Shown here: positions 7,711-32,372 of the stretch, piece after piece
How positions within the stretch are numbered: position 1 is the first letter of the stretch
How the letters are laid out: each line of letters starts with the position of its first letter
From: Methanobacteriota archaeon
GTDB taxonomy: Archaea; Thermoplasmatota; Poseidoniia; Poseidoniales; Poseidoniaceae
Assembly (NCBI GenBank): GCA_018649825.1
Contig: JABIHC010000107.1
Coordinates: 1 to 34,797, forward strand
Length of the DNA: 34,797 nucleotides
Direction of reading: 5' to 3'
Program-made: the position numbers and the translations under genes
The notes under the pieces: generated by a model
Databases searched by the model: none
The model's input: only the letters and a program-made list of their open reading frames with translations
Told to the model about the DNA's origin: nothing

Positions 7711-7773
7711 TTTTTTATTTTCTAGGTTCACGTCATCACCTCATACGCTCTGTATGCAAAGCATCCGAGGGCC

Positions 7774-7800: not shown

Positions 7801-8281
7801 TTCGGTTTGAATTGACATATACTTTAGCCATGCAGCATAGCGTTTTATGATGATAAAATACCCGCCCCCATTAGTACAACATGTTTGTATAGAAATAATT
7901 GGACGCTTATATAATGCCGATGCCTCACAGATAAACGGCATACTGCATGACATCAGCCTCAATATGTTAGCAAATTACAGAATGTTATTTTTTGCACATC
8001 ATTTCAATGCTACAATAATATTATTTTTTTATCGCATAATAATTCCAAACTGTCACAAATATTTCCTATTGTTGCCGTTGCATCTTTTGCCCAAAGCGGA
8101 AGATGCCCAATAGTCGATTTTGATACCATTCCAGAACAGAGGAAACAATATCTCACGTGTGTGAAAAAATAATGAATAAGGGGAAAAGGTAACTTTATCA
8201 ATTTGCAGATCTATTATTCTCCACTGAACTACTCATGTAATGAAATCATTTCCCTCTAAGGAAAAATAAGGATAAGAATTT
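7801..8281. other. AT-rich intergenic stretch, no gene recognised
   Basis: Part of the 670-base gap between the two large minus-strand surface genes. It is AT-rich, with short open frames on both strands that lack family resemblance, convincing start signals or composition like the neighbours. No tRNA, repeat array or mobile-element end was seen. It probably holds upstream promoter sequence for the giant gene. Confidence 0.5.
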
Positions 8282-8324
8282 AAAAATAAAAAAGGCCGAG
8301 GACCCCGCACACGAGGCCCCCGGC
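8282..8324 (-). terminator. Strong hairpin plus T-tract terminator after the 1,049-residue surface gene
   Basis: On the minus strand, arms 8324-8312 and 8307-8295 form a 13-pair stem (10 Watson-Crick, 3 G-U) with a 4-base TGTG loop. It is followed directly by a CCTTTTTTATTTTT run. It lies 57 bases past the stop codon at 8381-8383. The form matches a bacterial intrinsic terminator; archaeal RNA polymerase can stop at T-runs alone, so the very stable stem is notable. Confidence 0.75.
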
Positions 8325-8380
8325 AAAATCGCCATCTCTTGGATGGGTTATTGTTGGGATTGGCTAATCAGAGATTAACT

Positions 8381-14134: not shown

Positions 14135-14158
14135 AACCCTTTGTGCAGTTTGAAAGCC

Positions 14159-15343
14159 ATGCCAACAATATCTACTGCTGAATTGGTGCGATGCCCTCCA
14201 AGATGGTTGCTCGTTAGAATTGAAAGTAGCGATGGAGAAATCGGATGGGGAGAAGCACTTGGCGACTTACACGAAGAAGTTGAGGCAGCCCTGCAATCAG
14301 CATGCAAAAAAATAATTGGACGCAATATTTCCGAAATTGAACGCCTTCGTCAAGAATTACTTTACGGGCGCTTTTGGCGAGATGGACCAGTATTGAATAC
14401 GGTTGCTGCAGCGATTGAAATGGCTTTGTGGGATATCAAAGGAAAGGCCGCCGGCGCCCCTATTCACGAACTATTAGGCGGGAAAATACGTGAAAAAGTG
14501 CAAGTTTACCGTAACATATGGGGGGGTGGAGCCCAAGAATTTGCAAAATCCGCAGTTGCAGCATTAAATGAAGGAATGACTGCTATGAAAGTGAGTCCTG
14601 TTGGCCCTATTCGAGGTATTGTGAGCGATGCGGACCTTTCGGGGATGGTTGAAATTGTTTCTCAAGTCCGTGATGCCATTGGCAAAGAGGCTAAGTTAGC
14701 AATTGACTTGCATGGGCGTTGTTCTCCTTCGGCAGGAAGGAGGGCGATTTCATTAGTTGCACCTTTTGATCCTTGGTTTGTTGAAGAACCAATGCTACCA
14801 GGAGATGCAAAGGCAATGTCTGAATTGCGCAATCTACGTTGTTCTCAACCAATACCAATTGCCGCCGGTGAACGATTCCTTAACCGGCAAATATCATTGG
14901 ATCATCTCTTCCCAACCCCTGCAATTGATATAATTCAACCAGATATTTCCTTAATGGGCTTGAGGGATACATTTGCAGTTGGCCTTGCTGCTGAAACGGC
15001 TCAAGTTCATCTCGCCCCTCACTGTCCATATGGCCCAATCCAAACTGCCGCAAGTTTGCAAATCGCTGCTGCTTGTCCTTCACACATAGCCCAAGAAGTT
15101 CAATCCCTCGGAGGGGCTGGTTTGCCAGGTGGACGTTCAGGTGATGGCTGGAAATGGGCATTTGAATTAATCAAAAAGCCGTTTGAAATTGAAGGAGGGT
15201 TTGTTTCAGTAAGAAGTGGAGCAAAATATGCCGGTTTGGGAGTTGAAATTTGTGAAGAAAGAATCGGTGAATTTGCTGAACAATGGAATCCACACCCCCC
15301 TACTCTTTGGCACACAGAAGATGGTGCAAGAGCCGAATGGTAA
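14159..15343 (+). CDS. Sugar-acid dehydratase, enolase superfamily (D-galactonate dehydratase-like)
   Basis: A 394-residue mandelate-racemase/enolase-superfamily enzyme. The ATG at 14159 is preferred over an in-frame TTG at 14141. The N-terminal capping domain (1-125) precedes the barrel. The DgoD set of active-site residues is complete: 'IDLHGR' gives Asp183 and His185, 'FVEEP' gives Glu209, 'AAGERF' gives Glu238, 'LAPHCPYGPI' gives His288, and 'AQEV' gives Glu313. These match E. coli DgoD with at most a three-residue offset. The expected reaction is Mg2+-dependent dehydration of D-galactonate, or a close sugar acid, to a 2-keto-3-deoxy acid. D-mannonate dehydratases of the same superfamily have different signatures, so the nearby mannosidase does not by itself assign mannonate. 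It heads the sugar island and no aldolase is next to it. Confidence 0.85.
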   Translation: MPTISTAELVRCPPRWLLVRIESSDGEIGWGEALGDLHEEVEAALQSACKKIIGRNISEIERLRQELLYGRFWRDGPVLNTVAAAIEMALWDIKGKAAGAPIHELLGGKIREKVQVYRNIWGGGAQEFAKSAVAALNEGMTAMKVSPVGPIRGIVSDADLSGMVEIVSQVRDAIGKEAKLAIDLHGRCSPSAGRRAISLVAPFDPWFVEEPMLPGDAKAMSELRNLRCSQPIPIAAGERFLNRQISLDHLFPTPAIDIIQPDISLMGLRDTFAVGLAAETAQVHLAPHCPYGPIQTAASLQIAAACPSHIAQEVQSLGGAGLPGGRSGDGWKWAFELIKKPFEIEGGFVSVRSGAKYAGLGVEICEERIGEFAEQWNPHPPTLWHTEDGARAEW

Positions 15344-15608
15344 TTTTCAATTGAAATAATCCTTTTCTAATTGGGATTTTTGCCTACATTATTGCCCATA
15401 TCGGCCTTGCTTCAGTAATAATGCCGAGGATTTCAGTGCCAATTACCAACATAGAAATGCTTATTTTTTGGCGCAAATAATAGTGTCTTTTTCGTCAATT
15501 TTCCTCACAGGTTCGCCATCTTACTGAGCAATTATTCTGGCCCTTTCAAAATCGTTTTTCAATTGGAAAATTCACCAGCCAATAATCATCTTTTTCGGCG
15601 GAGGGGCT

Positions 15609-16436
15609 ATGCCCTACTTACGACTCGCCCCCCTCATGCCTCGCATTATCATCACTGGGTCTTGTGGCCTAATTGGTGGCTTGGTATATGATGCGTTGAA
15701 AGAATTGGGTCACGAAGTTTTTGGCATTGACAGGCCACACTCTGACCGTATTTCTCGTGGCAGGAATATCGATGACAAAGAGGCGCTAAATCGCCTTGAC
15801 CTCGCCTTAGATATCTCCACAATTAGTGTTAATAGTTTAGCAAAAATATTCAAAGGCCATGATCAAATCATTCACTTAGCAGCCGATGCAGACCCTTCTA
15901 ATTGGGGTCGTTCAATGCTTGAAGTTAATATCGTCGGCACCCATACCGTTCTAAAAGCAGCAAAGCAAGTCGGCATTAAACGAATTGTTATTGCATCATC
16001 CGGCCTTTCCCAAGTTACCTTAGAGAGGCAGTTAATTGAGGGAGGTAATCTTCACGGCAAACTAATTGGAATTGAGGATGGAGTCGGAATTGATTCACCT
16101 TATGGCTTGAGTAAAATTGTTGGAGAGGAACTCGGCAGGGCATTTGCATCATCCAGCATGGAAGTAATTTCTGTTAGAATAGGCACAGTTATCCCTGATG
16201 ACACTGAACATGTTCGCCGCGGTGGCCGACTTATGGCAACTGCATTTTTGCAACAGGATGTGATAAATTTCTTCATCGCAGCGACCCACAATGAACTTCC
16301 AGCAAACCAATACTTCCTTCTCACCGCAGCCCAATCAAACTCTCCGACCCGATTCGTAGATTTAGAACCAGGATTGTCCTCACTTGGTTGGACGCCACTT
16401 GATTGGCAAGAATGGTTAAGCGTTTATGAGGGGTGA
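15609..16436 (+). CDS. NAD(P)-dependent sugar epimerase/dehydrogenase, uronate-dehydrogenase-like SDR
   Basis: A 275-residue extended short-chain dehydrogenase. The nucleotide-binding motif is 'TGSCGLIG', followed by 'GIDRPHSD'. Catalytic Tyr-x3-Lys is in 'YGLSKIVGEE'. The following 'VRIGTVIPDD' and the C-terminal 'LGWTPLDWQEW' resemble bacterial uronate dehydrogenase (Udh), which oxidises hexuronates to aldaric lactones. An NDP-sugar epimerase is the main alternative, but the protein is short for that group. Next to a sugar-acid dehydratase, a sugar-to-lactone dehydrogenase fits best. The start is uncertain: the ATG at 15609 follows GGAGGGG closely, while the ATG at 15636 (MPRIIITG) would remove an odd 9-residue extension. 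The 265 bases upstream hold no recognised gene. Confidence 0.75.
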   Translation: MPYLRLAPLMPRIIITGSCGLIGGLVYDALKELGHEVFGIDRPHSDRISRGRNIDDKEALNRLDLALDISTISVNSLAKIFKGHDQIIHLAADADPSNWGRSMLEVNIVGTHTVLKAAKQVGIKRIVIASSGLSQVTLERQLIEGGNLHGKLIGIEDGVGIDSPYGLSKIVGEELGRAFASSSMEVISVRIGTVIPDDTEHVRRGGRLMATAFLQQDVINFFIAATHNELPANQYFLLTAAQSNSPTRFVDLEPGLSSLGWTPLDWQEWLSVYEG

Positions 16437-16505: not shown

Positions 16506-17909
16506 TTGAGCCTCGTATTGGCTATTGATGTCGGCACAAGTTCTGTTAAACTTCTCTTAACTAACGGAAAAAGATTCGAAAAACTTCATGCCTTTCTCAC
16601 GCCCTTTCCTTCAGAAGGTGACTCCGATGGAATCATTGACTCACGCGATTATCTCGACTCTATTTGGAAGGGAATTAGAGAGTGGCTGATTGAAGCGTTG
16701 CCAAAGGGAAAAAAAATAACCAAAGTTGGAATTACCAGCCATATTCAAAGTGCCCTTCTCGTGACAAAAACTGGTCAGCACTTTGCCCATATGCACCGTT
16801 GGGACCATCCCATTGATTCTGCAGTTACAGATGATTTTATTTCACAATTTAACGGAAAGTGGCCCGGTCTTGGAATGAGTTCTGTTTTGAATCCAAGGGG
16901 AAGTTGGATGCCAATGCGACTTCGCAATTGGGCCTTGACTTATCCCGAAGCCGGAAAAATAATTTATCAGAATGGCGGTTATGCATTACAAGTAAAAGAC
17001 GCATTAAACTACGACCTTTGTGGAGTTTTTGCTAGTGATGCACGTTCAATGCGGGGCTGGCTAAACTTTGAAAATGAAGTTAATGCTCAACTTAGTTCAT
17101 GGGTGGGATTGGGTGATATTTGCCCACCTATTCTTGAACCGCAGGAAACTCTTGGGGAGGTGAATGATTTTGGCAGCGAAATCAGTGGGATTGACGAAGG
17201 AGTGGAAGTAATAGTTGGTTGTGATGATTTTTCCGCTGGAATTCATGGTTTTGCATCCCGCACTGGAACTCTGCTTAATATGGCAAATACAACTGAACAC
17301 TTGGCAGTAACCTTGTCTGATAAAAAATCGTTTGTTGCTCAACAGCACGCTACGGAAACCGGTTTGTCATATCTGCCAAAAAATGGCGATTTAGAAGCCG
17401 TACTATATTGCTCAACCGCAAGTGGAGGGATGACATTAAAAATGTGCTTACCAAGAATCAAGGGGTTTCCATTTGAAGAAGTTGGATGGGATGAAGAAGG
17501 GTATATTGCTGCACTATATTGGCTAATTGATATCATGGGAGAGCGGCCCGAAAACGGTGTTGATGCTGAGATTGGTTTTGATGCTGAGATATTTACAAAG
17601 CGCGGACTGAAGCCATCAGCAAAACATATTGGTGGCTGGGACGGAAACCCTTCCATACTTAACCCAAGAGAGCAAGCATGGATGATTTTTGAAGGCCTTA
17701 TTGATTCGCTACACCCAATTAGAGTCGCCCTTCTGCCATTTACAAATGAGGGCCGACCAGTAAAGATCGGCGGAGGCTTATCTATGATAGGACCCGTGTT
17801 GGAAAGCAGAGCCGCCCGTTGGCCTCAAGGGATTGAGGTTGTGGCGACAAGAGAAATAAGCGCAAGAGGAATTTGTCGATTGTTGGGGATAGAGGTTGAA
17901 ATTGACTGA
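16506..17909 (+). CDS. FGGY-family carbohydrate kinase
   Basis: A 467-residue ATP-dependent sugar kinase using a TTG start; no nearby ATG preserves the ATP-binding opening 'LAIDVGTSSVKLLL' (phosphate-1 loop). Further FGGY marks are 'DALNYDLCGVFASDARSM' (substrate domain), 'VGCDDFSAG' with the presumed catalytic base Asp240, 'NMANTTEHLAVTL', and the C-terminal 'IGGGLSMIGPVLESRAA' (adenosine loop). Length is slightly below the usual 480-520 residues. Members phosphorylate xylulose, ribulose, gluconate, fuculose, glycerol and others; the substrate cannot be read off here. It sits 47 bases before the polyol dehydrogenase-like gene, so kinase and dehydrogenase probably act on connected intermediates. 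Confidence 0.87.
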   Translation: MSLVLAIDVGTSSVKLLLTNGKRFEKLHAFLTPFPSEGDSDGIIDSRDYLDSIWKGIREWLIEALPKGKKITKVGITSHIQSALLVTKTGQHFAHMHRWDHPIDSAVTDDFISQFNGKWPGLGMSSVLNPRGSWMPMRLRNWALTYPEAGKIIYQNGGYALQVKDALNYDLCGVFASDARSMRGWLNFENEVNAQLSSWVGLGDICPPILEPQETLGEVNDFGSEISGIDEGVEVIVGCDDFSAGIHGFASRTGTLLNMANTTEHLAVTLSDKKSFVAQQHATETGLSYLPKNGDLEAVLYCSTASGGMTLKMCLPRIKGFPFEEVGWDEEGYIAALYWLIDIMGERPENGVDAEIGFDAEIFTKRGLKPSAKHIGGWDGNPSILNPREQAWMIFEGLIDSLHPIRVALLPFTNEGRPVKIGGGLSMIGPVLESRAARWPQGIEVVATREISARGICRLLGIEVEID

Positions 17910-17956: not shown

Positions 17957-19156
17957 ATGAAAGTTGTCATTTTCGGCGCGGGCAAAGTAGGGAGAGGTTT
18001 TCTTGCCGATTTGTTTTCACGAGCAAAATGGGATATTAGCCTTGTTGAAGTAATACCAAACACCCTTAACCTTCTAAATAATGAAGGGGAATGGAACTTA
18101 ATTCGTCTCAAAGATGAACCTGAAATTATTACAATTAGCGCGACAAACATTATTGATGGAAATAATCAAACGGCAGTAGATTTGGCCATTCAGTCGGCTG
18201 ATTTGCTTTGTACCGCAATTGGCGGTTCGCACTTAGAAAAATGGGCTATTTCGGCATTTATGCCACTAATGCAAAGAGTTGAAAGGGGAAAAATCGATAT
18301 CATTTTTGCTGAAAATCATGCACAACCGGCTGAATTAGTTCGCAATACACTGCAAAAACAACTGATGCAATTGTCCGACAAGAATGCCGAGGAAAAATTG
18401 TTTGCAAACCTTGGCCTCGCCCAAGCGCAGATATTACGCTCTTGTATTGAGCCGAGTGCTGAGCAAATTACAGAATATGGAAAGTTAACCTTGCGAGTTC
18501 AAGACCATGATATCCTCCCGCTTGATGCAGATGCCCTTACTTCGCCCGAATTGCTGAAAGATGTTCCTGGACTAAGGCCAACTCACAATTTTTCCCTTGA
18601 ATTAACGCGAAAAGTTTTCACCTATAATGCGATAAATGCAGTAGTTTCCTATCTTGGCTCCATAAGAAACTATGATTTTTTGGCTGATGCAGCAAATGAT
18701 GAAGAAATTGCATTAATTGCCAAAGCGAGTGGTCTTGAAGCGAGTAATGCGCTTATTTCCTCCTTTGGATTTGCGCGTGATGAGCAAATTGCTTGGGCGC
18801 AGCGAGCATTAGCAAAATATCAGGACCGCAGAATTGTTGACCCCATCGACCGCCAATGCCGCGACCCGATTCGCAAACTTGGAGTAAACGATCGTCTTCT
18901 CGGACCGATACTTCTTGCGATAAAATTAGGATTGCCGTGCGCTAATCTTGCAATAGGTATGGCTGCAGCCCTTGCTTATGAGCCAAGCGAAGAGGAGAAA
19001 ATACGTGACCCTACTTATGCAAAACTTTCGGAAATGCGGCAAGAGTCTAACTCAAAAATAGTAGCAACGCTATGTCCCAATGTGTCTGATGTTACAAAAA
19101 AAGCACTTGAAAATGTGCTTGCTGAAGGGCAGAAAAGCCTTACCAATATGAATTGA
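17957..19156 (+). CDS. Mannitol-1-phosphate 5-dehydrogenase-like polyol dehydrogenase
   Basis: A 399-residue member of the polyol-specific long-chain dehydrogenase family. The Rossmann N-terminus is 'MKVVIFGAGKVGRGFLADLF', close to the MtlD opening. The catalytic region 'TRKVFTYNAINAVVSYLG' places Lys219 and Asn224 in the family K-x4-N-x2-H motif, but the final His is Asn227 here. The C-terminal 'RDPIRKLGVNDRLLGPILL' and 'GLPCANLAIGMAAAL' blocks match MtlD. The expected reaction is NAD+-linked interconversion of a polyol (phosphate) and a keto-sugar (phosphate). GGGGGG lies just before the ATG. It directly follows the FGGY kinase gene. The substrate may differ from mannitol-1-phosphate, given the changed residue. 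Confidence 0.85.
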   Translation: MKVVIFGAGKVGRGFLADLFSRAKWDISLVEVIPNTLNLLNNEGEWNLIRLKDEPEIITISATNIIDGNNQTAVDLAIQSADLLCTAIGGSHLEKWAISAFMPLMQRVERGKIDIIFAENHAQPAELVRNTLQKQLMQLSDKNAEEKLFANLGLAQAQILRSCIEPSAEQITEYGKLTLRVQDHDILPLDADALTSPELLKDVPGLRPTHNFSLELTRKVFTYNAINAVVSYLGSIRNYDFLADAANDEEIALIAKASGLEASNALISSFGFARDEQIAWAQRALAKYQDRRIVDPIDRQCRDPIRKLGVNDRLLGPILLAIKLGLPCANLAIGMAAALAYEPSEEEKIRDPTYAKLSEMRQESNSKIVATLCPNVSDVTKKALENVLAEGQKSLTNMN

Positions 19157-19315
19157 AATTGGACAGAAAACAATTGTTGCAACAATTACCTTTGGCAAAA
19201 GAATGCATAAACTGAAGCACACCTCCGCCCTTTGTTGCAAAGTAATACAATTAATGAATGAAAATCTTGCTTTGTTCCGCTGGGTTCAAGAAGCAATGGC
19301 GGGGGTCAGTAGTTG

Positions 19316-22024
19316 ATGACGAAGAAAAGCGCAACCGCTATGCTCGCAGCCGGATTCATGATGTTGGTTCTTAATTTAGCAGTAATTGGCCCCGTTGCAA
19401 CCTCTGCAGTACAGGATGCAGTTGATGATGCAATGGTCAAAACGGCAGAAAATACTTGGGAAAATGATGATTGGATTGATAGTCAAGACAGTAGAACTTA
19501 TTACGCCTTTGGATTAACTAATTTGGAAGAAGTAAATAATGGTTCAGATCCAATTTTTGAGAAGCAGGGGCCTTTTTCTTATGACATTGAAACCCATAGT
19601 ACATTCATTTCTCATGATGAGGTTGAGGGCACGCTAACATACTCTTCCAATTCAATATTTACCTTTGCTGAAGGAGAGGATCCAAGTGCACAGATTACCC
19701 AAATGAATATTCTATATGAGGCGCAAAGAGTTGCAGTATTCCCATCAATGATGAGTACATTTGGCGATATTGCTGGTGCTGGTTTCATGTCTGAAGTGTT
19801 GAAGGAAGACCTCAGTACGACTCAAGCCGCAATACGTACCGGTCAGGTGATTACTCAAGCCATCGCTGATTCCGGCAATTCTTCAAATGTTGGTAATGCT
19901 GCCTTTGTTTCTTGGGCTAATGCAACAAATTACTCCGGCCCAGATGCTGATTTCACCGACCTTGACTACGCATTCCTAAATGCAGACGATGGAGCCGGAG
20001 TTGACATCTCCCTTACCGGCCGAGTTGGAGCAACTTTGTTCATGGGAATGGGTGTGCCAAGCAATGAAACTAGCCCCGCAAGAGCTGCGCTCTTCGGTTA
20101 TGCTGATGTTGATGCAAATCTTACATCTGCACGAGATAACGCCCTATATTCACTTGTAGGAACTAATTATGCTGCCTTCGGAGGGGGAACTTCTTGGGAC
20201 ACAGCATCAGAGGAAGAACTTGAAATTCGCATGGAGGCTCTTTTTGGGGTGCCATTTGGATTGGGTTTTGATAAGACTATTACCAATTTGCTCACTCATA
20301 ATGATAGTACTTCTGACCCAGACGGACTTCTCGCTTGGTCTGAAGACGGCTTATTGCCTGGGTTGGCAACTTTCTTTTCAACCGCTCCAGTAAATCCAGC
20401 ATGGACTTTCCTTGAATTCGGAATAACCTATCCGCAAATCCTAGCCCTTGGAGATTGGGCGACTGCACTCTCAGAGGACTCTACTGGAGTTCCAATGGTT
20501 TTACTCGGAGGTAGTGGTCTATTAACACAATCAGAATGGTGGATTGCGACATGGGGTGGAGTTGACCCTCTGAATGGAGAGATCAATGATATTGGAGTCA
20601 ATAGTTTCACCCGTTTGCCGTGGTATGATTTAGAGCCAGTTTCATGGGATGAATCCACTGTTGATTATGTGATGAATGGACCATTTGGTCTTGCCACTAG
20701 TGCATCAATTTACACAATATATGGCATCTTTGCAAACCGTACTGTACCAGTTGATTCCGACCAGAACTCCTCTACCTACTTACAACCGGTGATTGGTGGT
20801 GATGAACTGCCCTTTACCGATGAAATTATTGGCGCTTATTACAACATTAGTGTTGATGATGCAGCAGTTCTTCGCAATTACATTGAAAATATGTTTGATG
20901 GCGTATTGCCGATGTTCTTGGAGCACTTTTTTGGAGTAACAAAGTGGTCAACTCATTCCGTCAATGAATGGTTATTTGGCTGGCATGACCCACTACTTGC
21001 ATATAGTGCTGCAACTGAAGCAGGAGAAACTAACATGGCTGCTGCAATGGCCGACATGTCAGTTGGATGGGCAAGTCTTGAATCAAACAAAACTTATTTC
21101 GGCAGTGAGCATCTTGACGATGATGGAAACTTAGTCTCTGTAAATCTCAGTGAAAGTGAGCACACAATTTACACCGGAGAAACAGACCTCTCGTTGGTCG
21201 GAGAATATGTCGCTTTCAACGGAAACCCTGAACTGTGGTGGAGGACAACTGAGCACTATAATGCCACATACGGTCTTTCACCAATAGAGATGATGGATGG
21301 CACTACCGGCGGATTCGTTGATGGCACAAATTACGACCCTGAAAACCCCCCTTCTTTCACATTGAACCTTGCGGACTACGCAATTGTTACCGCAAATTAT
21401 GAAGGCAAAGGAGAATTACACGGAATGGAAGTTGAAGTTTGGTCTGCGAACCTTGACCCTACTGAGAGAAGCGTACAACAGAAATTGATTGACAGTAAGA
21501 CAATCATGGATGTATTACCGGGCGGCTTGCCGATATACTTCGGTTCAGAAGTTACTTTGATGACTGAATCGGTGACTGGGAAAATTGTCAGCGGCGACTC
21601 GAAATCTTTCTTTTATCTTGACTTGAGGGGACTTGGGGCTGAAAATCCAACCATGGATGATCTACAACCGGTATTCGAAATCAACCGTTTTGCTCAAGCC
21701 GAAAAAGAAGATGTTGAATTTATTGAGAATAGTTTACATGCAAACCAAGATCCAATGACATATTGGATGAATTTTGACACTGGTGCTGATGCATTCTTTA
21801 TTGACTATATCACATTACTATTCTATCTCGGCGGCATTATTTTGATTGGCCTGAGTGGATGGAAATTTGTCATGATAACCGAAGATGAGGTGAAAAATTT
21901 CACCGAGGCTACCGGTGCAATAATTGATGTTGCAGAGGCGGTAGAAGCGGCAATGAACACAGACGATACTGAAGCCGATGAAGTTGATGAAGAACCAGCA
22001 ATAGACAACTCGGATGATAATTAG
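19316..22024 (+). CDS. Two-TM ectodomain protein resembling the CD36/LIMP-2/SR-B scavenger-receptor family
   Basis: A 902-residue protein from the ATG after an in-frame TTG. Topology is N-terminal TM (about 8-29), a long extracellular part, C-terminal TM (831-854) and an acidic cytosolic tail, the layout of CD36. Blocks in CD36 order: 'AFGLTNLEEVNNGSDPIFEK' then 'QGPFSY' (about 64-89; CD36 has a 'NPEEV...GPYTYR' block), 'EGTLTYSSNSIFTF' (about 104-117), 'SVNEWLFGWHDPLLA' (548-562; CD36 'LRELLWGYRDPFLS'), 'YVAFNGNPELWW' (631-642; 'IDTYKGKRNLSYW'), 'MMDGTTGGF' (659-667; 'INGTDAASF'), and 'ANYEGKGELHGMEVEVW' (CD36 'VNLKGIPVYRF'). An extra segment of nearly 400 residues sits where CD36 has its short apical helices. 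There are no cysteines, so the CD36 disulfides are absent. Several N-x-S/T sequons occur. CD36 proteins bind and pass lipids; the role here is unknown. Its neighbours are sugar genes. Confidence 0.72.
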   Translation: MTKKSATAMLAAGFMMLVLNLAVIGPVATSAVQDAVDDAMVKTAENTWENDDWIDSQDSRTYYAFGLTNLEEVNNGSDPIFEKQGPFSYDIETHSTFISHDEVEGTLTYSSNSIFTFAEGEDPSAQITQMNILYEAQRVAVFPSMMSTFGDIAGAGFMSEVLKEDLSTTQAAIRTGQVITQAIADSGNSSNVGNAAFVSWANATNYSGPDADFTDLDYAFLNADDGAGVDISLTGRVGATLFMGMGVPSNETSPARAALFGYADVDANLTSARDNALYSLVGTNYAAFGGGTSWDTASEEELEIRMEALFGVPFGLGFDKTITNLLTHNDSTSDPDGLLAWSEDGLLPGLATFFSTAPVNPAWTFLEFGITYPQILALGDWATALSEDSTGVPMVLLGGSGLLTQSEWWIATWGGVDPLNGEINDIGVNSFTRLPWYDLEPVSWDESTVDYVMNGPFGLATSASIYTIYGIFANRTVPVDSDQNSSTYLQPVIGGDELPFTDEIIGAYYNISVDDAAVLRNYIENMFDGVLPMFLEHFFGVTKWSTHSVNEWLFGWHDPLLAYSAATEAGETNMAAAMADMSVGWASLESNKTYFGSEHLDDDGNLVSVNLSESEHTIYTGETDLSLVGEYVAFNGNPELWWRTTEHYNATYGLSPIEMMDGTTGGFVDGTNYDPENPPSFTLNLADYAIVTANYEGKGELHGMEVEVWSANLDPTERSVQQKLIDSKTIMDVLPGGLPIYFGSEVTLMTESVTGKIVSGDSKSFFYLDLRGLGAENPTMDDLQPVFEINRFAQAEKEDVEFIENSLHANQDPMTYWMNFDTGADAFFIDYITLLFYLGGIILIGLSGWKFVMITEDEVKNFTEATGAIIDVAEAVEAAMNTDDTEADEVDEEPAIDNSDDN

Positions 22025-22131: not shown

Positions 22132-25038
22132 ATGGCGAAGGCACCGGCTCGCAAATCTACTGCCTCGGCCAAAGAGAATTTTAGCAACAAAAACAGTGCT
22201 GCACCTTTGATTGGTTATGTCACACCTCACGTTCATTGGGACCGTGCATGGTATCTTCCATTCCAGCAATACCGCTATCGTTTGATTGAATTCGTTGATG
22301 AACTATTGGCATTATTGGAAGACCCTGATTCAAATTATCCCTCATTTGAATTTGATGGCCAAACTGTAGTTCTAGAAGATTATTTAGAAATTAAACCAGA
22401 GAATCGCCAGCGAATTGAAAAACTCGTCAAAGATGGAAAATTAGGTGTCGGGCCTTGGTATGTATTGCCCGATGAGTTCATTGTGGGAGGGGAAGCATTA
22501 GTTCGCAACCTCCAATTCGGATATCGTATTTCAGAGGAATTTGGCGGACGCTGCAATATTGGATATGTGCCTGACCCGTTTGGTCATGTCGGTCAACTTC
22601 CCGCAATATTGCAAGGGGTTGGCTTGGACACTTTCCTTTTTACCCGCGGTGCAGGACAGTGGGTAGGTGAAGCGGGATGCGTTTTTGATTGGATTGCTGC
22701 CGATGGTAAAACCTCTGTATTGGCCGTAAAGCAAACTCCAGATTACCCCTGCCTTATGGCATGGGGGTTTGAGATTCGTCAATTGGACCGGAAGTCTAGT
22801 CCTGATGTAAATGTCGAAAGTGCAATGGGTCGGCTTCAACGCCTCCTTGATGGCCTAGAAAATACCTACAATTGGACCGCACCTGTTGTTCAGTTGGGTA
22901 ATGGATCTGACCATACCGCACCTCAACCAACTTTACCTATGTTGATTGAAAAGGCAAATGAGCATTTCAAGGGAAAAATCAATTTACAGCATGCTCGTTT
23001 TTCAGATTTCTTTGATGCCATAAAAGAGTGGAAATCTCAGCGAATTGCCGATGGCAACCCCCTTGTTGAATTCCAGGGTGAATTGCACCAAGGCTGGGAC
23101 CGTGCATTACTCTCAGGCGTTTACAGTGCCCGCCTCTATCTCAAAAGAATGAACGATGCTACAATGAATGTTCTTTATGACAGAGTAGAGCCATTGGCGG
23201 CACTGGCATGGAATATGGGTGGCCGCCCCCGCCCCGATGCCTTACAGTTGGCATGGCGCGAAGTATTACGCAACCACCCACATGACGACATTTGTGGTTG
23301 CTCAGTGGATGCTACACATCAAGACATGGAGATACGCTACCGCCACGCAAGAGAAATTTCAACGATGCTCGTAGAAGACCTTAGAGAAGATATTCAACCG
23401 TTATTTGACCTCCATCATGAAAACCCAGATGCAGTTCCTTTCCTACTGCATAACCCTAGACCCACAAATTGGTCGGGAACTTTGAATTTGAATCTGGTCG
23501 TCCCAAAGACGGGAGGATGGTTGGAAAGAGATTTTGCTTTTGCCGTATTGGCTGATGGAGATGGTTTACTCAATGCCACTGCAGAAATTACCGCACCTTC
23601 ATGGGGATTACATATTCACCCTGATAGAGTTGCAAATGTTCAATTGCCAAGAGTCAAAGGTTCAATTGAAGTTAGTGGTTTGGAACCCGGTTGGCATGTT
23701 GCCCACTTATTGCCTGGCCTTGAATTCCCACTTCCCCCTGGTGATGCAGTTCGTTGCAGTGAGGGAGATGATTCAGCAAGTCGCTGGATGGAAAATAGTC
23801 TGATAAGAGTAGTTTTCCGAGATGATGGCAGATGGGATATTATTGATTTGTCAACTGGACGTACTTTTGTTGGTTTAGGTCAACTCGAAGATGACGAAGA
23901 AGCCGGAGATTCGTACGACCATAGCCCTGGCGGATATCCAGTAGCAGTTGGTGCTGGAAAGGACGTAGGATTGGATGAGAGGCCAGAACCAGTTGATCGC
24001 AGAAACACTCATACTGTCGAAGATAGCGATATTATCGTTAATTTGGATTGGTCTGTCACCAATCAATGGTCTGCTACAATGCATATTCAAATTGAATGGT
24101 CATTACCAACATATTTTGAAGATGAAACCCAAAAACGCAGTGCTCAACAAGAATGGGTTTCAATTGAGCATTGGGTTACTATGAGGTCGGCATCACCTGT
24201 TCTAGAAATAGAGACCATCATAGACAATAGTGTGGAAGACCACCGGACAAGAATTATTGTCCCTACTGGAGTTAACTCAAAAACCGTCACTGCCGGTGGA
24301 GCATTTGAAATGGTTGAACGTCCATGGTTTTTCCCGCATGTCAAAGAATGGAATCAGCCTGAAGTTCCAACTAAACACATGCATAATCTTGTTCTTGCTG
24401 AAGATGAGGAGGGTGGATTAGCGGCTTTCGCACCAGGTTCAAACGAGTATGAAGCGAGAGAGGGTGAGGATGGAGGGCTTGATTTGTGCCTTACTTTGGT
24501 TCGTAGCGTCGGTTGGCTTTCTCGCGATGGTTTTGCTTGGCGCAGAAATCGTGCTGGACCTTGTTTCCCTGCACCCGGTGCTCAATGTAACGGACAAAAT
24601 ATGATGCGCTGGGGCCTAATGCCCTTTGAAGGTAAATGGAGTAATTCACAATTAACTGCAAATGGAGATGCCGTTCACGAAATTGCGGCTAGTTTTGCTT
24701 CGCGACCCACAATAATCGCCGGACTGCCTAAGCCACAACTCGATGCATCCTTTGACCCATTACCAAACAGTGGAAAACTTGGCACACGACACCAATCGTG
24801 GATTCTTGAAGGGGCAAAACCAAAACCAATTCTGGTATCTTGCAAACCATGTGAAAATGGCGAAGGATATGCGATGAGATTTTTTAACCCAACTGCAACT
24901 AATTGGCATGGAAGTCTTGAAGATAGCAATGGATTATCCACTTTTTGCAGTGACATGCTGGAAAGAGTTACTGAAGAATGTAAAAAGGGGGATATTACAA
25001 TCCCTGCTGGCGGAATTGCCACATATGTCATGAGGTGA
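22132..25038 (+). CDS. Alpha-mannosidase, glycoside hydrolase family 38
   Basis: A 968-residue GH38 enzyme. The catalytic domain starts 'TPHVHWDRAWYLP', giving the zinc ligands His35 and Asp37. 'GYVPDPFGHVGQ' holds the nucleophile Asp148. 'NHPHDDICGCSVDATH' carries the third zinc ligand His384, and its wording is typical of prokaryotic family members. The helical middle domain is at about 310-420 and the beta-rich GH38 C-terminal domain at about 500-960. It hydrolyses terminal alpha-mannosyl residues with retention. The N-terminus is basic and lacks a signal peptide (MAKAPARKSTASAKENF), so the enzyme is probably cytosolic and acts on imported oligosaccharides. It is translationally linked to the DUF2817 gene, which starts 4 bases later. 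Confidence 0.95.
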   Translation: MAKAPARKSTASAKENFSNKNSAAPLIGYVTPHVHWDRAWYLPFQQYRYRLIEFVDELLALLEDPDSNYPSFEFDGQTVVLEDYLEIKPENRQRIEKLVKDGKLGVGPWYVLPDEFIVGGEALVRNLQFGYRISEEFGGRCNIGYVPDPFGHVGQLPAILQGVGLDTFLFTRGAGQWVGEAGCVFDWIAADGKTSVLAVKQTPDYPCLMAWGFEIRQLDRKSSPDVNVESAMGRLQRLLDGLENTYNWTAPVVQLGNGSDHTAPQPTLPMLIEKANEHFKGKINLQHARFSDFFDAIKEWKSQRIADGNPLVEFQGELHQGWDRALLSGVYSARLYLKRMNDATMNVLYDRVEPLAALAWNMGGRPRPDALQLAWREVLRNHPHDDICGCSVDATHQDMEIRYRHAREISTMLVEDLREDIQPLFDLHHENPDAVPFLLHNPRPTNWSGTLNLNLVVPKTGGWLERDFAFAVLADGDGLLNATAEITAPSWGLHIHPDRVANVQLPRVKGSIEVSGLEPGWHVAHLLPGLEFPLPPGDAVRCSEGDDSASRWMENSLIRVVFRDDGRWDIIDLSTGRTFVGLGQLEDDEEAGDSYDHSPGGYPVAVGAGKDVGLDERPEPVDRRNTHTVEDSDIIVNLDWSVTNQWSATMHIQIEWSLPTYFEDETQKRSAQQEWVSIEHWVTMRSASPVLEIETIIDNSVEDHRTRIIVPTGVNSKTVTAGGAFEMVERPWFFPHVKEWNQPEVPTKHMHNLVLAEDEEGGLAAFAPGSNEYEAREGEDGGLDLCLTLVRSVGWLSRDGFAWRRNRAGPCFPAPGAQCNGQNMMRWGLMPFEGKWSNSQLTANGDAVHEIAASFASRPTIIAGLPKPQLDASFDPLPNSGKLGTRHQSWILEGAKPKPILVSCKPCENGEGYAMRFFNPTATNWHGSLEDSNGLSTFCSDMLERVTEECKKGDITIPAGGIATYVMR

Positions 25039-25042: not shown

Positions 25043-26158
25043 ATGTATTGGTCAAGAGACCATGCCGGTGCAACTGGCAAATTAATTGTTGCAATTGATG
25101 GATTGGAGAGCCGTGGTTTTTCAGTGAACCACCAACGACATGAAATAGGTCAACTTGGACCTCATGATGAAAATTTGGCGATCGATACTGTTTGGATTGG
25201 ACCGCCAAATGCAAAGAAATTACTTCTTTCAACTTCTGGAGTTCATGGAGTTGAGGGATTTGCCGGTTCAGCAATCCAATTGAGCCAAATTGCCGACCTC
25301 AAGGCACCAAGTGACATACCGGAGGATACCGCCATTGCCTTTGTCCATGTAATGAATCCGTGGGGAATGGCATGGTTGCGGCGCGTCAATGAGTCAAATG
25401 TTGACCTTAATCGTAACTTCTTAAAGAAAGGTGAAGAATACTCTGGTGAACCGCAAGGATATGCTAAATTAAGCCCCCTTCTCAACATTAAGAAATACCC
25501 TAAACCACTTGAACCATTTATTCTCAAGGCCTATTTATACACTCTAAAAAATGGCTATAATAAAACCAAGCAGGCCTTTGCCGAAGGACAATATAGGCGA
25601 CCAAAGGGATTGCAATTTGGTGGCTTCAAACTGGAAAAAGGGCCACAGATACTCCTCAATTGGCTTGAAGAAAATTTGACCCATGTGGAACAATGTAATT
25701 GTATTGATTTACACACAGGGCTTGGCAAATCAGGCAAGGATACTTTACTTGTTGACATTGATGTTAATTCACCCCGATTCACCCAACTAAAACAACGGTT
25801 TGGAGAAAAAATTACCGGCTTGGATAGTGGTTCTGGTGTGGCTTATAGCGTAAGAGGAGGGATTCACTGCGGAGTGGAAGATAGATTTCCTAACATTGAA
25901 TGGGCTGGAATTACCCAAGAATTTGGAACTATCAAACCATTTCCACTGATAAAGGCGCTACGAGCCGAAAATTGTATCACTTGGTGGTCAGAACTGACAC
26001 CTCAACAATTACTTATTCATAAGAGCAGACAAAAACTGCTCAGCGCTTTTAGAGTAGATGAGTTAAAATGGGAGAGGTCGCTCATTGACAATGGAAAGAG
26101 GCTATTCAACCTCGCATTAGCAGATTTACAAACTCAAAATGAAGGAAAGACTAGGTAA
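25043..26158 (+). CDS. DUF2817 family M14-like zinc hydrolase
   Basis: A 371-residue protein with zinc-carboxypeptidase-like marks: 'SGVHGVEGFAGSA' (His68 and Glu71, first zinc ligands), 'NVDLNRNF' (Asn/Arg substrate-binding motif), 'CIDLHTGLGKSGKDTL' (His224, third ligand) and 'ITQEFGT' (Glu293, presumed catalytic acid/base). This is the pattern of DUF2817 proteins, which belong to the M14 carboxypeptidase/aspartoacylase fold. No signal peptide is visible, so it is presumably cytosolic. It could trim peptides or deacylate an amide. Tight coupling to the alpha-mannosidase suggests a substrate carrying both sugar and amide or peptide bonds, such as glycopeptide fragments; that is inference. 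Confidence 0.85.
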   Translation: MYWSRDHAGATGKLIVAIDGLESRGFSVNHQRHEIGQLGPHDENLAIDTVWIGPPNAKKLLLSTSGVHGVEGFAGSAIQLSQIADLKAPSDIPEDTAIAFVHVMNPWGMAWLRRVNESNVDLNRNFLKKGEEYSGEPQGYAKLSPLLNIKKYPKPLEPFILKAYLYTLKNGYNKTKQAFAEGQYRRPKGLQFGGFKLEKGPQILLNWLEENLTHVEQCNCIDLHTGLGKSGKDTLLVDIDVNSPRFTQLKQRFGEKITGLDSGSGVAYSVRGGIHCGVEDRFPNIEWAGITQEFGTIKPFPLIKALRAENCITWWSELTPQQLLIHKSRQKLLSAFRVDELKWERSLIDNGKRLFNLALADLQTQNEGKTR

Positions 26159-26185: not shown

Positions 26186-27067
26186 ATGGCAAAGGAAATA
26201 AAAGTACGCGCACCTGTAAGAGTTGATTTGGCAGGAGGGTGGACCGATTGTGCTCCTTTCACAAATGACAAAGGGGGCGAAGTAGTTAACTTTGCAATTA
26301 ATCAATATATTGAGGCGAATATGAAAATTGATGATGAGGGGCGGCTTTCAGTCGCTTATTCATCAGACTGTCCAGTTTCAAGTGGACTTGGCACCAGTGC
26401 AGCAATGAATGTTGCTTTTCTTTCAGCTATTGCTGGAGAAGGACGCAGTGATGTTGAAATTGCCGAGTTGGCTTATCGATTTGAAGAATTACTCGGCAAT
26501 CGCGGCGGCAGGCAAGACCAATGGGCTGCTGCCGGAGGAGGCTTTCAGCATCTAATGTTCTATGGCGATAATGTCGAAAGACTTCCTTTTGAGCCAGCAC
26601 CCAGCGCTTTGCGCTGGTTGAAAAAACACCTCATTCTCGCTTACACAAATGTCACCCATAACAGTGGAGAACTACACAATAGTATTTGGCAGAGATATGA
26701 CGAGGAAGATGAAGAAGTTCATTCGGCATTAATGACTCTTAGAGAAATGGCAAGGCAAGTTGCAGGAGCACTCAATTCTGACCGCAGAAATGACCTAATT
26801 GATGCAATCAGACAGGTATCAGCAGCGATAGAAAAAATGTCGCCCGAACTTAATGCACCTTATCGAGAAGTCGTTGACCCATTAACCGAAGCAAAATCTA
26901 TTCTTGCGTGGAAAGGCATGGGGGCTGCAGCAGGTGGAACTATCGGGATAATTTCCAACCACGATAAGCAAAAGGAAATAATCGCCGCCTGTGAAAGTGC
27001 TGGATGGACTATTCTAGACTGGGACTATGACTCCGAAGGCTTGATTCGTAGCGAGAATAATTCTTGA
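26186..27067 (+). CDS. GHMP-family sugar kinase (L-fucokinase / heptose-7-phosphate kinase-like)
   Basis: A 293-residue kinase. It opens 'KVRAPVRVDLAGGWTDCAPF', matching the sugar-recognition block of fucokinases and HddA-type heptose kinases ('APxRxxxAGGxTD'). The ATP loop is 'PVSSGLGTSAAMN' (63-75). 'GNRGGRQDQWAAAGGGF' supplies the region with the catalytic Asp, and 'KGMGAAAGGTIGI' is the C-terminal GHMP motif. It should phosphorylate the anomeric hydroxyl or another hydroxyl of a hexose or heptose. It follows the DUF2817 gene by 27 bases and ends the plus-strand sugar island, converging on the next gene with 4 bases between stops. The exact sugar is not determined. Confidence 0.88.
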   Translation: MAKEIKVRAPVRVDLAGGWTDCAPFTNDKGGEVVNFAINQYIEANMKIDDEGRLSVAYSSDCPVSSGLGTSAAMNVAFLSAIAGEGRSDVEIAELAYRFEELLGNRGGRQDQWAAAGGGFQHLMFYGDNVERLPFEPAPSALRWLKKHLILAYTNVTHNSGELHNSIWQRYDEEDEEVHSALMTLREMARQVAGALNSDRRNDLIDAIRQVSAAIEKMSPELNAPYREVVDPLTEAKSILAWKGMGAAAGGTIGIISNHDKQKEIIAACESAGWTILDWDYDSEGLIRSENNS

Positions 27068-28238: not shown

Positions 28239-29135
28239 TTATTCACCCTCCTGAATAAGTGAAGGCTCATTGGAAATCGTCAAATCTCCATTTTCAAAGA
28301 ACAAAGCGCGACCAACCTGTGGAATAGTGCAGGGGAAATCAGGTAGACGCTTACTCAATTCTTTGTGGTAAATGAGTGGGTCAACAGTATTATCGGGGTC
28401 CATGCCGTAATGCATTGGAATGGCTACTTTCGGCTTGACAACAGTAATTAGGTCAACGGCCTCAATATGTGACAAATTGTCATTTCCGTTAATGCACAAT
28501 AATGCAATGTCAAGTTGGGCTGACTCGCCTTCATTACTTCTACTACCTTCTTTGGCAGAAAGAGAATTGACTGCTTTTGTTATCGCCGTATGCCAACCGG
28601 GCCACGGCTTTCCATCACCCATATGATACAAGGAAACTCCATCACATTCCAAAACATAACCTACATACCAAGAACAACCATCCTCGTCAAAATCTAATTC
28701 CATATGAGCAGCAGGAATAGCCTTGAAACTTAGCGGGCCGATACTCTGTTGACGGTGCCCGTTACTGCTGATGATTCGCTCGGCCTCAATCCCCCAACTA
28801 AGCAAGAGGTCAACGGAACGAGAGGGGATGATGAACTTTGTATTTGCAAAGGCTTTGGCCATTCGAGGTAAAGTTTCTGGGCAGATGTGATCATCGTGCC
28901 AGTGGGTGCAAAATACATAATCTGGAGCAGGGTATTCCTCAGGAGCAAGGGGGAATTCACCGATTAATTTAGCCCACATATCACCGGCAAATAGGTCCCG
29001 CCACCATGGGTCAATCACAACACTACAACTTGGGAATTTGACAAACCATGATGCTTGGGTTAACCACCATAGGCCTGCTCCGCCATGCTTTGGCTGGAAT
29101 TCTTCAATCTGTGCCGAAAGTTCTTCACTACGCAT
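28239..29135 (-). CDS. Metallo-beta-lactamase-fold hydrolase, UlaG (ascorbate-6-phosphate lactonase)-like
   Basis: 298 residues from the ATG at 29135. Metal motif 'CTHWHDDHICPETL' has His78, His80, Asp82 and His83 in the H-x-H-x-D-H pattern. UlaG-like wording is seen in 'LWWLTQASWFVKF', 'SVDLLLSWGIEAERI', 'SLYHMGDG' and 'VAIPMHYGMDPDN'. UlaG opens the lactone ring of L-ascorbate-6-phosphate; relatives act on other lactones or phosphodiesters (NAPE-PLD is a distant cousin). A sugar-acid lactone would match the nearby Udh-like dehydrogenase. The start is uncertain: the frame is open to an ATG at 29339, with another ATG at 29228, but these add sequence unlike the family and reach towards the divergent gene. 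The gene is translationally coupled to the unknown gene at 27072. Confidence 0.8.
   Translation of the reverse strand: MRSEELSAQIEEFQPKHGGAGLWWLTQASWFVKFPSCSVVIDPWWRDLFAGDMWAKLIGEFPLAPEEYPAPDYVFCTHWHDDHICPETLPRMAKAFANTKFIIPSRSVDLLLSWGIEAERIISSNGHRQQSIGPLSFKAIPAAHMELDFDEDGCSWYVGYVLECDGVSLYHMGDGKPWPGWHTAITKAVNSLSAKEGSRSNEGESAQLDIALLCINGNDNLSHIEAVDLITVVKPKVAIPMHYGMDPDNTVDPLIYHKELSKRLPDFPCTIPQVGRALFFENGDLTISNEPSLIQEGE
28243..28252 (-). promoter_or_regulatory. Shine-Dalgarno inside the end of the UlaG-like gene
   Basis: AGGAGGGTGA on the minus strand lies in the last codons of the UlaG-like gene, 4 bases before the ATG at 28238 of the unknown gene. Confidence 0.65.
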
Positions 29136-29347
29136 GAATGGTTGATTGCGTTTTGTGCCGCGGTTTGAAACTGAGGCAGGAGGATTGTTTGCACAAGCAT
29201 CTGCTTGACTGTCATCTACCCTCCGCATAGATGGCGCAGGGTGGGCCTTGCACAATAGCCTTAGCCTTGGAAAGGTTGGCAATAAACTGTGTTTTGGACT
29301 TCCAAGAATAAGGTCGCTGAATAATAACACATATTGCATAACAGCCC

Positions 29348-32056
29348 TTGGGTTGGTCCGTGTCCAGCAACCGAGTATCCATATTGGCGATGGTGATTTT
29401 ATTCACCTTCTCTCTTGGTTCTGGCTTCGTTGAACCCTCAACCACCTCCCAATGGAGTGAACAACAGGATAATTCAAATCATTATTTTGTTGTAAATGAC
29501 GATGATAACGTTTCAAGAAATACTGGCGGTGAGGTATCGGTTTCTGCAAAAGAAGGGGAAATGCCCGAAGTTTGGCCGGAAGGAGTTAATGCCTACGACA
29601 ATATGGTTAGCATGACCAACTTCGGTTATCGAAAAATAGATACTGCCGCAAATGAAAATGCCCGCAATTGGATAGCAGGTGAATTGACTGACATGGGTTA
29701 TGAGGTTGAACGGCAGCCATTTACTACTGACGAGTGTACGAATTGTGAAAACATTGTGATAACTATCAATGGAAGTCTTAGCGACAGTTGGTATGTAGTC
29801 GGTTCGCACCACGATGCGATTTGTTATTCACCCCCACCTCTTGTAGGAGTGACTTACACGGGTTGTTCTTCATCGGGAGCATATGATGATGGAACTGGCA
29901 GCGGTTCGTTACTTGAAATTGCAAGAGCCATTTCTCAATGGAACGGCACCCCAACTCATACTTGGAAATTAGCATGGTGGGATTATGAAGAATGGCAAGG
30001 CTCATCTTCAAGCGAAGGTGGAGGCAAGGGTAGTCTAAACTTTGTTGAAAATTATATTCCCGAAAACATAAATGTTACCTATGTCAATTTGGATATGTTT
30101 GGACTAAACTGGCCAGTACAGACTCCTTCAGCAAGCCAAATGAGTGGTTGTGACGAGGATTATTGGACCCTATATGAGTTCACCTCACCCACCGATGATT
30201 GGTCCTATTATGAGGACAGAGGTTTGGAAGTCACCGAAGAAATGCAAAGCCGAGCAGAATGGTTTCAGGGTGAATTAAGAGATGTAAATACTAATCTTTC
30301 TCACCCCGAGCCTTGGGTAAATGTTATTGATGATACAAAGGGGAATTCTGATCATTTCAATTTTATTATGAACGGGCACACTGCCACCTGGCTGCGCGGC
30401 CAACATCAATACATTATGGAAGAAGGTGATTCTTGCGAACAGACACCTAAACACGCTCAAACCGATTCTGTGACCACTATCAATACGATGGCCGGTGGGC
30501 GTGCGAATGTAGAAGCTGGACTTCAAACGGGAATAGATATTGTTGCCACTTTAGCTTGGTGGGATTGGTCAAATCAAACAACTGATGATAACGGAACAAT
30601 AACCGATAGCGCTGCTGGCACTTCTGAAATCGGCCTTACCACCATTGCAATATCATTATTGGTAATTATTGTTGCACTAATCGCCATGACCGATATCACC
30701 AAAAAACGCAATATTCAGCCCTTTGATTTGGGCGAAAATGAACGCTTCCGCACACTCTGGTTCCTCATTTTTTACCTCGGATTCTCAATGCCATTTGCAT
30801 TCTTTGGTTATTGGGGTAGAACTCTAGGCATGGCGGAATTTGGCCTTGACAAATTCACCGTTATGGCAATGTTCATGGTTGTGCAAATTCCGTTCTTCAT
30901 GCGCCCACTATGGGCCCAACCTGTTGACCGAATGCAAAGTCTGCCAATGGGTAAGCGTCGCACTTGGATGCTATACGGCTCAATTGGCCATATGATTCTA
31001 TTATTGCCTCTTATTTTCATTGACATTTCCAATCAGCCTTGGATATGGATTGGTTTCCTAATGATTGCTCTAATACCTCGACTATTCGCTGAGCAAGCGG
31101 TTGCGGCGATGATGGCTGAAAGTGTACCGCAACTGGGTAAGGCCAATTCTATGATTAATTTGTCATATAGAGGAGGTGGGCATCTTGTCCTCATTCTATT
31201 GGGTTGGTGGATTGCAGGTGGTGAATCATCTCCTTTCATCACTGATGGAGTTACCAATTTCGCCGCCGTTCAGTATGCAATGTTTGTAGTATTACTTCTC
31301 GCAATGATTGGTGGAATTGCTATTACCCACATGATGCGAGAAGGTGAGGAATTACCGAAAGCCAAAAAGAAAGATCCATTCCCCGAAGGAACTTCTTTCA
31401 AAGATAAAGTCTTAGCAGCAATGCAAACTAAAACCGCTTGGTTAGTCTTATTTGGCTGTATATTACTTCCACTAGGAGATGGTTTTGAGGCTTGGTTTTC
31501 GGCATACTTGGTCGAGGTGCAAAATATGGATGGGGCAGAAATAACCCGCTGGTGGAATATTTTTGCCGTGGTAAATTATCTTGGACTTGCTGGACCTTGG
31601 GTTTCAGACATTTTTGGGCGAAAGCGAATGCTTCGCCTCTATGCGCTAGGCTCTGTTGTTGCATACCTAGCCCTTGGATTCAGCATGTTAATGGGAATGT
31701 CGGGTATCATTACCATAATGATTTGGATTCCAACATTAGTTCTTACCGATTGGATGATGTTCACCTTCATCACCACTTGGGCAGACATTGCCGACCCACG
31801 CCTTGGCGCCACACACATGTCGGTATTCCAAACCGCCCATGCCCTTTCTGCAACATTCGTAATGGTTGGCTTGGGCGGTCTGCTCCTCGTAGCGAGTAAT
31901 GATGCTTATTGGTTATTATTCATGCTCGCTGCCGCTGGACCTGCTCTTGGGTGGTGGATATTTAGCAACCTCAAACTTGCCGATGAAGATATGGGCACTG
32001 ACCAATGGCAACCCAATTTCCTACGATTATCTACTGAGAATGCGAAAACTGAGTGA
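29348..32056 (+). CDS. M28-family metallopeptidase fused to an MFS-type transporter
   Basis: 902 residues counted from a TTG at 29348; GTG at 29360 or ATG at 29390 are possible starts. A signal/anchor helix (about 10-28) precedes an extracellular M28 peptidase domain (about 90-400) with all five zinc ligands and the general base: 'GSHHDA' His154, 'AYDDGTGSG' Asp180, 'DYEEWQ' Glu214 (base) and Glu215, 'NLDMFG' Asp249, 'KHAQTD' His369. A TM helix at about 432-454 leads into a transporter-like half (about 463-885) of some 10-12 helices, with 'PVDRMQSLPMGKRRTW', an MFS-style basic loop, and a second 'VSDIFGRKRMLR' loop after the central cytosolic linker (about 660-690). The likely role is aminopeptidase cleavage outside, with the product handed to a permease. 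ERMP1-type M28 multi-TM proteins are an alternative comparison, but the two DR-x-GKRR loops favour MFS. Confidence 0.87.
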   Translation: MGWSVSSNRVSILAMVILFTFSLGSGFVEPSTTSQWSEQQDNSNHYFVVNDDDNVSRNTGGEVSVSAKEGEMPEVWPEGVNAYDNMVSMTNFGYRKIDTAANENARNWIAGELTDMGYEVERQPFTTDECTNCENIVITINGSLSDSWYVVGSHHDAICYSPPPLVGVTYTGCSSSGAYDDGTGSGSLLEIARAISQWNGTPTHTWKLAWWDYEEWQGSSSSEGGGKGSLNFVENYIPENINVTYVNLDMFGLNWPVQTPSASQMSGCDEDYWTLYEFTSPTDDWSYYEDRGLEVTEEMQSRAEWFQGELRDVNTNLSHPEPWVNVIDDTKGNSDHFNFIMNGHTATWLRGQHQYIMEEGDSCEQTPKHAQTDSVTTINTMAGGRANVEAGLQTGIDIVATLAWWDWSNQTTDDNGTITDSAAGTSEIGLTTIAISLLVIIVALIAMTDITKKRNIQPFDLGENERFRTLWFLIFYLGFSMPFAFFGYWGRTLGMAEFGLDKFTVMAMFMVVQIPFFMRPLWAQPVDRMQSLPMGKRRTWMLYGSIGHMILLLPLIFIDISNQPWIWIGFLMIALIPRLFAEQAVAAMMAESVPQLGKANSMINLSYRGGGHLVLILLGWWIAGGESSPFITDGVTNFAAVQYAMFVVLLLAMIGGIAITHMMREGEELPKAKKKDPFPEGTSFKDKVLAAMQTKTAWLVLFGCILLPLGDGFEAWFSAYLVEVQNMDGAEITRWWNIFAVVNYLGLAGPWVSDIFGRKRMLRLYALGSVVAYLALGFSMLMGMSGIITIMIWIPTLVLTDWMMFTFITTWADIADPRLGATHMSVFQTAHALSATFVMVGLGGLLLVASNDAYWLLFMLAAAGPALGWWIFSNLKLADEDMGTDQWQPNFLRLSTENAKTE

Positions 32057-32102
32057 AACAGGGCGCCACAAGTATCTTGAGAGCAGGCATAGTGGCAAAA
32101 AT

Positions 32103-32372
32103 ATGGGCCTAGTAAACGACCATGCTGATGAAGCAGATACCGACTTCCTGATTTACACCGCAACTTATTGCCCATTTTGTACTGGACTGAAAGGTTTTCT
32201 TAAGGGAAAGGGCTTGACCTATACCGAATACAACTTTGACCAACAGGAAAATATTCGCCGTGACATTGTTAATGAAACTCGTCACCAAACCGTTCCAGTA
32301 GTTATTGACATCCGCGGAGAGCAACCAATCTTCATCGGTGGATTTGATGAGACAAGAAAATATTTTAGTTAA
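32103..32372 (+). CDS. Glutaredoxin-like protein
   Basis: 89 residues with thioredoxin fold. The active site is 'ATYCPFCTGLKGFLKGKG' (Cys-Pro-Phe-Cys), followed by 'HQTVPVVIDI' (cis-Pro) and 'IFIGGFDET' (glutathione-binding Gly-Gly). It reduces disulfides or glutathione-like mixed disulfides in the cytosol. An in-frame ATG at 32042 would overlap the end of the peptidase-transporter gene and add a basic 20-residue stretch; the ATG at 32103 fits family length better. It converges on the alpha/beta hydrolase gene. The 68 bases between them hold a weak GATTG-TTG-CAATC hairpin near 32388 and T-rich sequence. Confidence 0.9.
   Translation: MGLVNDHADEADTDFLIYTATYCPFCTGLKGFLKGKGLTYTEYNFDQQENIRRDIVNETRHQTVPVVIDIRGEQPIFIGGFDETRKYFS

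Follow-up and report, generated by a model that had tools for sequence, protein, structure and literature searches.

Gene organization of the locus

The window, by which we mean the whole 34,797-nucleotide stretch of DNA analyzed, belongs to a metagenome-assembled genome (MAG) of Candidatus Poseidoniales (Marine Group II, MGII) that is closest to Guaymas_26. On its forward strand, an open reading frame at 29348..32056 starts with TTG and is uninterrupted for 902 codons. The encoded chain consists, in order, of a signal peptide, an M28 peptidase domain with all metal ligands, a single anchor helix, and a 12-helix permease of the major facilitator superfamily (MFS). Hydropathy places the N-terminal signal peptide or anchor at residues 1-28 (29348..29431), the choice of start codon being uncertain. 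Hydropathy and the structural model together place the transmembrane anchor helix at residues 426-447 (30623..30688), after which lies the fusion junction. The lysine- and arginine-rich segment that follows this helix is compatible with an M28 domain outside the membrane and an MFS N terminus inside. A promoter and terminator scan gave results equal to those for shuffled sequences, or worse.

Upstream on the same strand lies a cluster of sugar-related genes. It comprises a galactonate-type dehydratase of the MR_MLE family (14141..15343; named from the equivalog match of relatives), a 265-bp intergenic gap (15344..15608), a member of the NAD-dependent epimerase/dehydratase family (15609..16436), an FGGY carbohydrate kinase (16506..17909), a mannitol-dehydrogenase-family oxidoreductase (17957..19156), a GH38 α-mannosidase in which no signal peptide was seen (22132..25038), a DUF2817 protein (25043..26158), and a GHMP kinase (26186..27067). 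The fusion gene itself has two conserved neighbors, a divergent metallo-β-lactamase-fold gene on the reverse strand (28239..29339) and a glutaredoxin gene on the forward strand (32049..32372, start approximate). Two further frames stand out. The forward frame at 19313-22024 encodes a 903-residue protein that matches the CD36 family in Pfam (E = 5e-20), here in an archaeon; it has no sequence match in the PDB, and related frames occur on contigs L032 and L085. The reverse frame at 1-7731 is open-ended, encodes 2577 residues, and has no Pfam match.

An AlphaFold model of the fusion protein, built on a 28-sequence alignment, had a mean pLDDT of 69 and a pTM of 0.51 and left the relative placement of the two halves unfixed. 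When the model was used for Foldseek searches, one half matched aminopeptidases and the other MFS transporters.

The M28 peptidase domain

The predicted extracellular zinc-peptidase domain, delimited by Pfam, AlphaFold, and Foldseek, spans approximately residues 75-405 (29570..30562) and contains six cysteines. Pfam Peptidase_M28 (PF04389) covers residues 135-359 with an E value of 1.2e-16 and scores 61.4 bits, the cut-off being 21.3. The five ligand positions were assigned by motif relative to the Streptomyces griseus aminopeptidase. They are His-154 (29807..29809), the bridging ligand Asp-180 (29885..29887), Glu-215, which adjoins the general base Glu-214 (29987..29992), Asp-249 (30092..30094), and His-369 (30452..30454). 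All six residues are invariant across 22 fused and 32 stand-alone homologues, and the complete five-ligand site proposed in the initial annotation is thus confirmed. The M28 half matches the S. griseus aminopeptidase with a target TM score of 0.72; the fold search returned both peptidases and glutaminyl cyclase.

The permease domain

The permease domain, which we call MFS-B, occupies residues 461-876 (30728..31975), as judged by Foldseek and by hhalign alignment to a set of AmpG-like permeases. Two loops, located where MFS motif A normally occurs, had been described as being of the DR-x-GKRR type. Both are real but they are unequal: loop 1 reads VDRMQSLPMGKRR (residues 526-538, 30923..30961), whereas loop 2 reads SDIFGRKR (residues 753-760, 31604..31627) and is only motif-A-like. 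Foldseek values for the membrane half were 0.69-0.73 with FLVCR2, 0.63 with FucP, and 0.48 with AmpG, and the AlphaFold model and Foldseek together assign it to the 12-helix MFS fold with moderate confidence.

A Pfam scan of the fusion protein gave no MFS_1 match, while a relative (L093) scores above the cut-off of that family. NCBIfam returned just a weak RhtX/FptX match, the AmpG model TIGR00901 (cut-off 350 bits) did not match the window protein and gave 36 bits for a relative (L082), and searching PDB sequences with the MFS-B profile gave no match. In hhalign, the profile alignment of MFS-B with the AmpG-like permeases shows only 25% identity (probability 97). The AmpG-like set in turn matches AmpG structures at 9e-18, and the AmpG and RhtX models below their cut-offs. 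The membrane half is thus an MFS domain by fold search and is predicted to be distantly AmpG-like. No ERMP1-type transmembrane domain was found in the Pfam scan at E = 1e-3, so this identity was dropped, and the transporter-type membrane half of the initial annotation holds.

Recurrence and origin of the fusion

The same fusion is present at 96% identity in another genome (G005, contig L032) and at full length and approximately 70% identity on contigs L033-L035 and L040. Because these are independent Poseidoniales assemblies, the fusion is neither a chance product nor an assembly merger, and a sequencing merger is ruled out. With the 902-codon frame, the Pfam M28 match, and the MFS fold, this recurrence bears out the single-chain M28-permease originally proposed. 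On contig L044, M28-MFS-B appears as two overlapping frames (7854-9458 and 9422-10522) in one MAG, probably through a frameshift or assembly error.

It had also been suggested that separate genes in close relatives would betray a merger. Separate genes do exist: the cluster of genome G030 is collinear with the window, and its M28 (431 residues) and a related permease (744 residues) are encoded apart. Given the recurrence of the fusion in independent assemblies, this reflects evolution, not artifact. The G030 permease gene lies between the epimerase and dehydratase genes, at a site that, by collinearity with contig L203, corresponds to the 265-bp gap in the window, where MFS genes are absent. 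A direct move of that very gene is not established because its product is merely 38% identical to MFS-B.

We refer to such unfused relatives of MFS-B as MFS-D; in MFS-D proteins the outside domain is C-terminal. A survey of 390 genomes from the phylum detected MFS-B or its unfused relatives, at an E value no worse than 1e-10, in 13, every one of them a member of Poseidoniales. On contigs L091 (1-2151) and L093 (2-3751), frames for large CARDB-repeat exoproteins overlap the start of the MFS-D gene by 4 bases.

M28 homologues were surveyed in 146 sampled genomes of the window genome's family together with genome contigs. They are mostly 70-80% identical and either stand alone with an anchor of their own or are joined to MFS-B or to an AmpG-like permease. 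Depending on the genome, the position flanked by the GHMP-kinase gene on one side and the u33072/pyrophosphatase genes on the other is occupied by M28-MFS-B, M28-AmpG, M28 alone, S8-AmpG, or an unrecognized domain joined to AmpG. Divergence of an AmpG-like permease in place is an unlikely source of MFS-B, since G001 and ETNP1_MAG_25 each have an M28-AmpG fusion and a separate MFS-B relative. On the M28 tree, one origin for all fusions was rejected, though only weakly (p-AU 0.036), whereas neither a single origin of the MFS-B fusions (p 0.22) nor, on the permease tree, a single clade of M28-bearing AmpG-like permeases (p-AU 0.11) was rejected. Contig matches led us to take families f1 and f2 as Poseidoniaceae and Thalassarchaeaceae; f3 is another family of the class. 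The window MFS-B is 75% identical to that of the f2 fusion (L202), while neighboring genes are approximately 35-57% identical, which suggests that the fusion was transferred between f1 and f2.

Exchange of outside domains

In the AmpG-like permeases the outside domain precedes a conserved anchor helix. The domains found there are M28, a cupredoxin (Pfam Copper-bind), two domains not recognized by Pfam, whose class labels come from simple motif matching, and, in families f2 and f3, an S8 subtilisin. Seven changes of outside-domain label are required on a 48-sequence permease tree, and at the level of sequence the exchange itself is evident. The S8 fusions (L174, L175, L177, L179, L180, and L182-L185) are approximately 1170-1340 residues long where complete; cupredoxin fusions occur in L111/L131, L136, L148, L152, L153, L156, L161, and L178.

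M28 on two different permeases and the unrelated S8 on the AmpG-like one, at the same locus, amount to recurrent coupling between secreted peptidases and permeases. A modular family of single-chain hydrolase-permeases may exist in Poseidoniales and a further lineage of their class, in which exchanged outside domains would pass product straight to the permease, a generalization we offer tentatively. The outside domains need not be enzymes, because some AmpG-like relatives carry non-peptidase ones such as cupredoxin.

Genomic context bearing on the possible substrate

Among 18 genomes with MFS-B or MFS-D, 17 have the GH38 mannosidase and 12 the galactonate-type dehydratase; of the other 18, one has the mannosidase (Fisher p = 7e-8) and none the dehydratase (p = 3e-5). 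These counts are not independent because the 36 genomes are a non-random set, related to each other and partly picked by MFS-B status. GH38 may go with M28 or with the locus and not with MFS-B, since the GH38 locus also has M28 alone or fused to an AmpG-like permease. Unfused MFS-B/D members adjoin genes for a galactonate-type dehydratase, an aldolase, and a sugar kinase; the f2 fusion faces a dehydratase with a galactonate dehydratase equivalog match, a KDPG-type aldolase, and a PfkB kinase. M60 peptidases adjoin MFS-D on L082, L124, and L127.

Proposed function

The initial annotation envisaged the cutting of a peptide or glycopeptide. That the permease family tracks the GH38 mannosidase, the galactonate-type dehydratase, and M60 peptidases favors the second substrate and makes the first less likely; the substrate is probably not plain peptide. 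From the sugar-catabolic neighbors, this co-occurrence, and the M60 adjacency we propose, at about even chances, that the protein is a single-chain ectopeptidase-permease that trims glycopeptides outside the cell and imports the product. The M28 domain, held outside on its anchor helix, would trim amino acids off its substrate, more likely a glycopeptide than a peptide. The MFS domain would then bring in a small product (a glyco-amino acid, a sugar, or a sugar acid), perhaps coupled to protons, and cytosolic enzymes of the cluster (GH38 mannosidase, dehydrogenase, kinase, and galactonate-type dehydratase) would degrade it. The fusion may have arisen when a permease gene from the cluster, or one related to it, became joined behind an anchored M28.

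A system in which M28 frees amino acids from plain peptides and the permease imports amino acids or small peptides would agree with the closest folds of the M28 half, which are aminopeptidases, and with the description of MGII as protein degraders (PMC6461757, PMC9723583). We consider it unlikely, given that the MFS-B/D family tracks sugar-catabolic genes and that its unfused members neighbor the dehydratase, aldolase, and sugar kinase. Alternatively, the permease could import a sugar or a sugar acid with no connection to the peptidase, the fusion just holding M28 at the membrane. The M28 of many relatives works without a fused permease, and M28 is fused to two different ones, as might be expected of a mere tether. 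Yet the stand-alone M28 already has an anchor helix of its own, so that tethering needs no permease, and S8 as well as M28 became joined to permeases, which makes this account improbable. The cupredoxin and the two unrecognized domains, which occupy the corresponding place on AmpG-like permeases, would suit a non-catalytic outside domain that serves the permease in binding, as for capture, or in folding or trafficking; with the M28 ligands and general base invariant in all fused forms, such a role is very unlikely here.

Coupled trimming and import, the reading we prefer, would bear on a central problem of plankton, the loss by diffusion of the products of extracellular digestion. Because peptidase and importer share one chain, and this arrangement recurs for two folds of peptidase and for two permeases, coupled cutting and uptake, with possible channeling of product, becomes a testable case in a marine archaeal group that is among the most abundant. 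The findings point to glycoproteins, not bare peptides, as food.

Comparison with known systems

We found no description of peptidase-MFS fusions in the openly licensed literature, and the words fusion, fused, and AmpG are absent from the main texts of the MGII genome papers searched. Membrane proteins of the ERMP1/Pff1 type combine M28 with a polytopic membrane domain. The present fusion shares this plan but differs in that its membrane half is MFS, with no ERMP1 domain found in the Pfam scan. The S. griseus aminopeptidase and Legionella LapA have the same catalytic fold and ligands as its M28 domain but are secreted and lack a transporter.

We know of no bacterial AmpG with a fused peptidase. 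The window permease is a 12-helix MFS protein like AmpG (TIGR00901; PDB 9j9z and 8zbb) and most of it can be aligned with the AmpG-like proteins of Poseidoniales, a set that itself matches AmpG; however, it does not match the AmpG model and lacks the LQDVxTDA stretch of that set.

In Lactobacillus casei, the MFS permease AlfH imports a glyco-amino acid (PMC6960285). Like the window cluster, the alf-2 system, which serves a glyco-amino acid, combines an MFS permease with a peptidase, a glycosidase, and a sugar kinase, but there the components are separate genes and the glycosidase is a fucosidase, whereas here peptidase and permease are fused and the glycosidase is a mannosidase.
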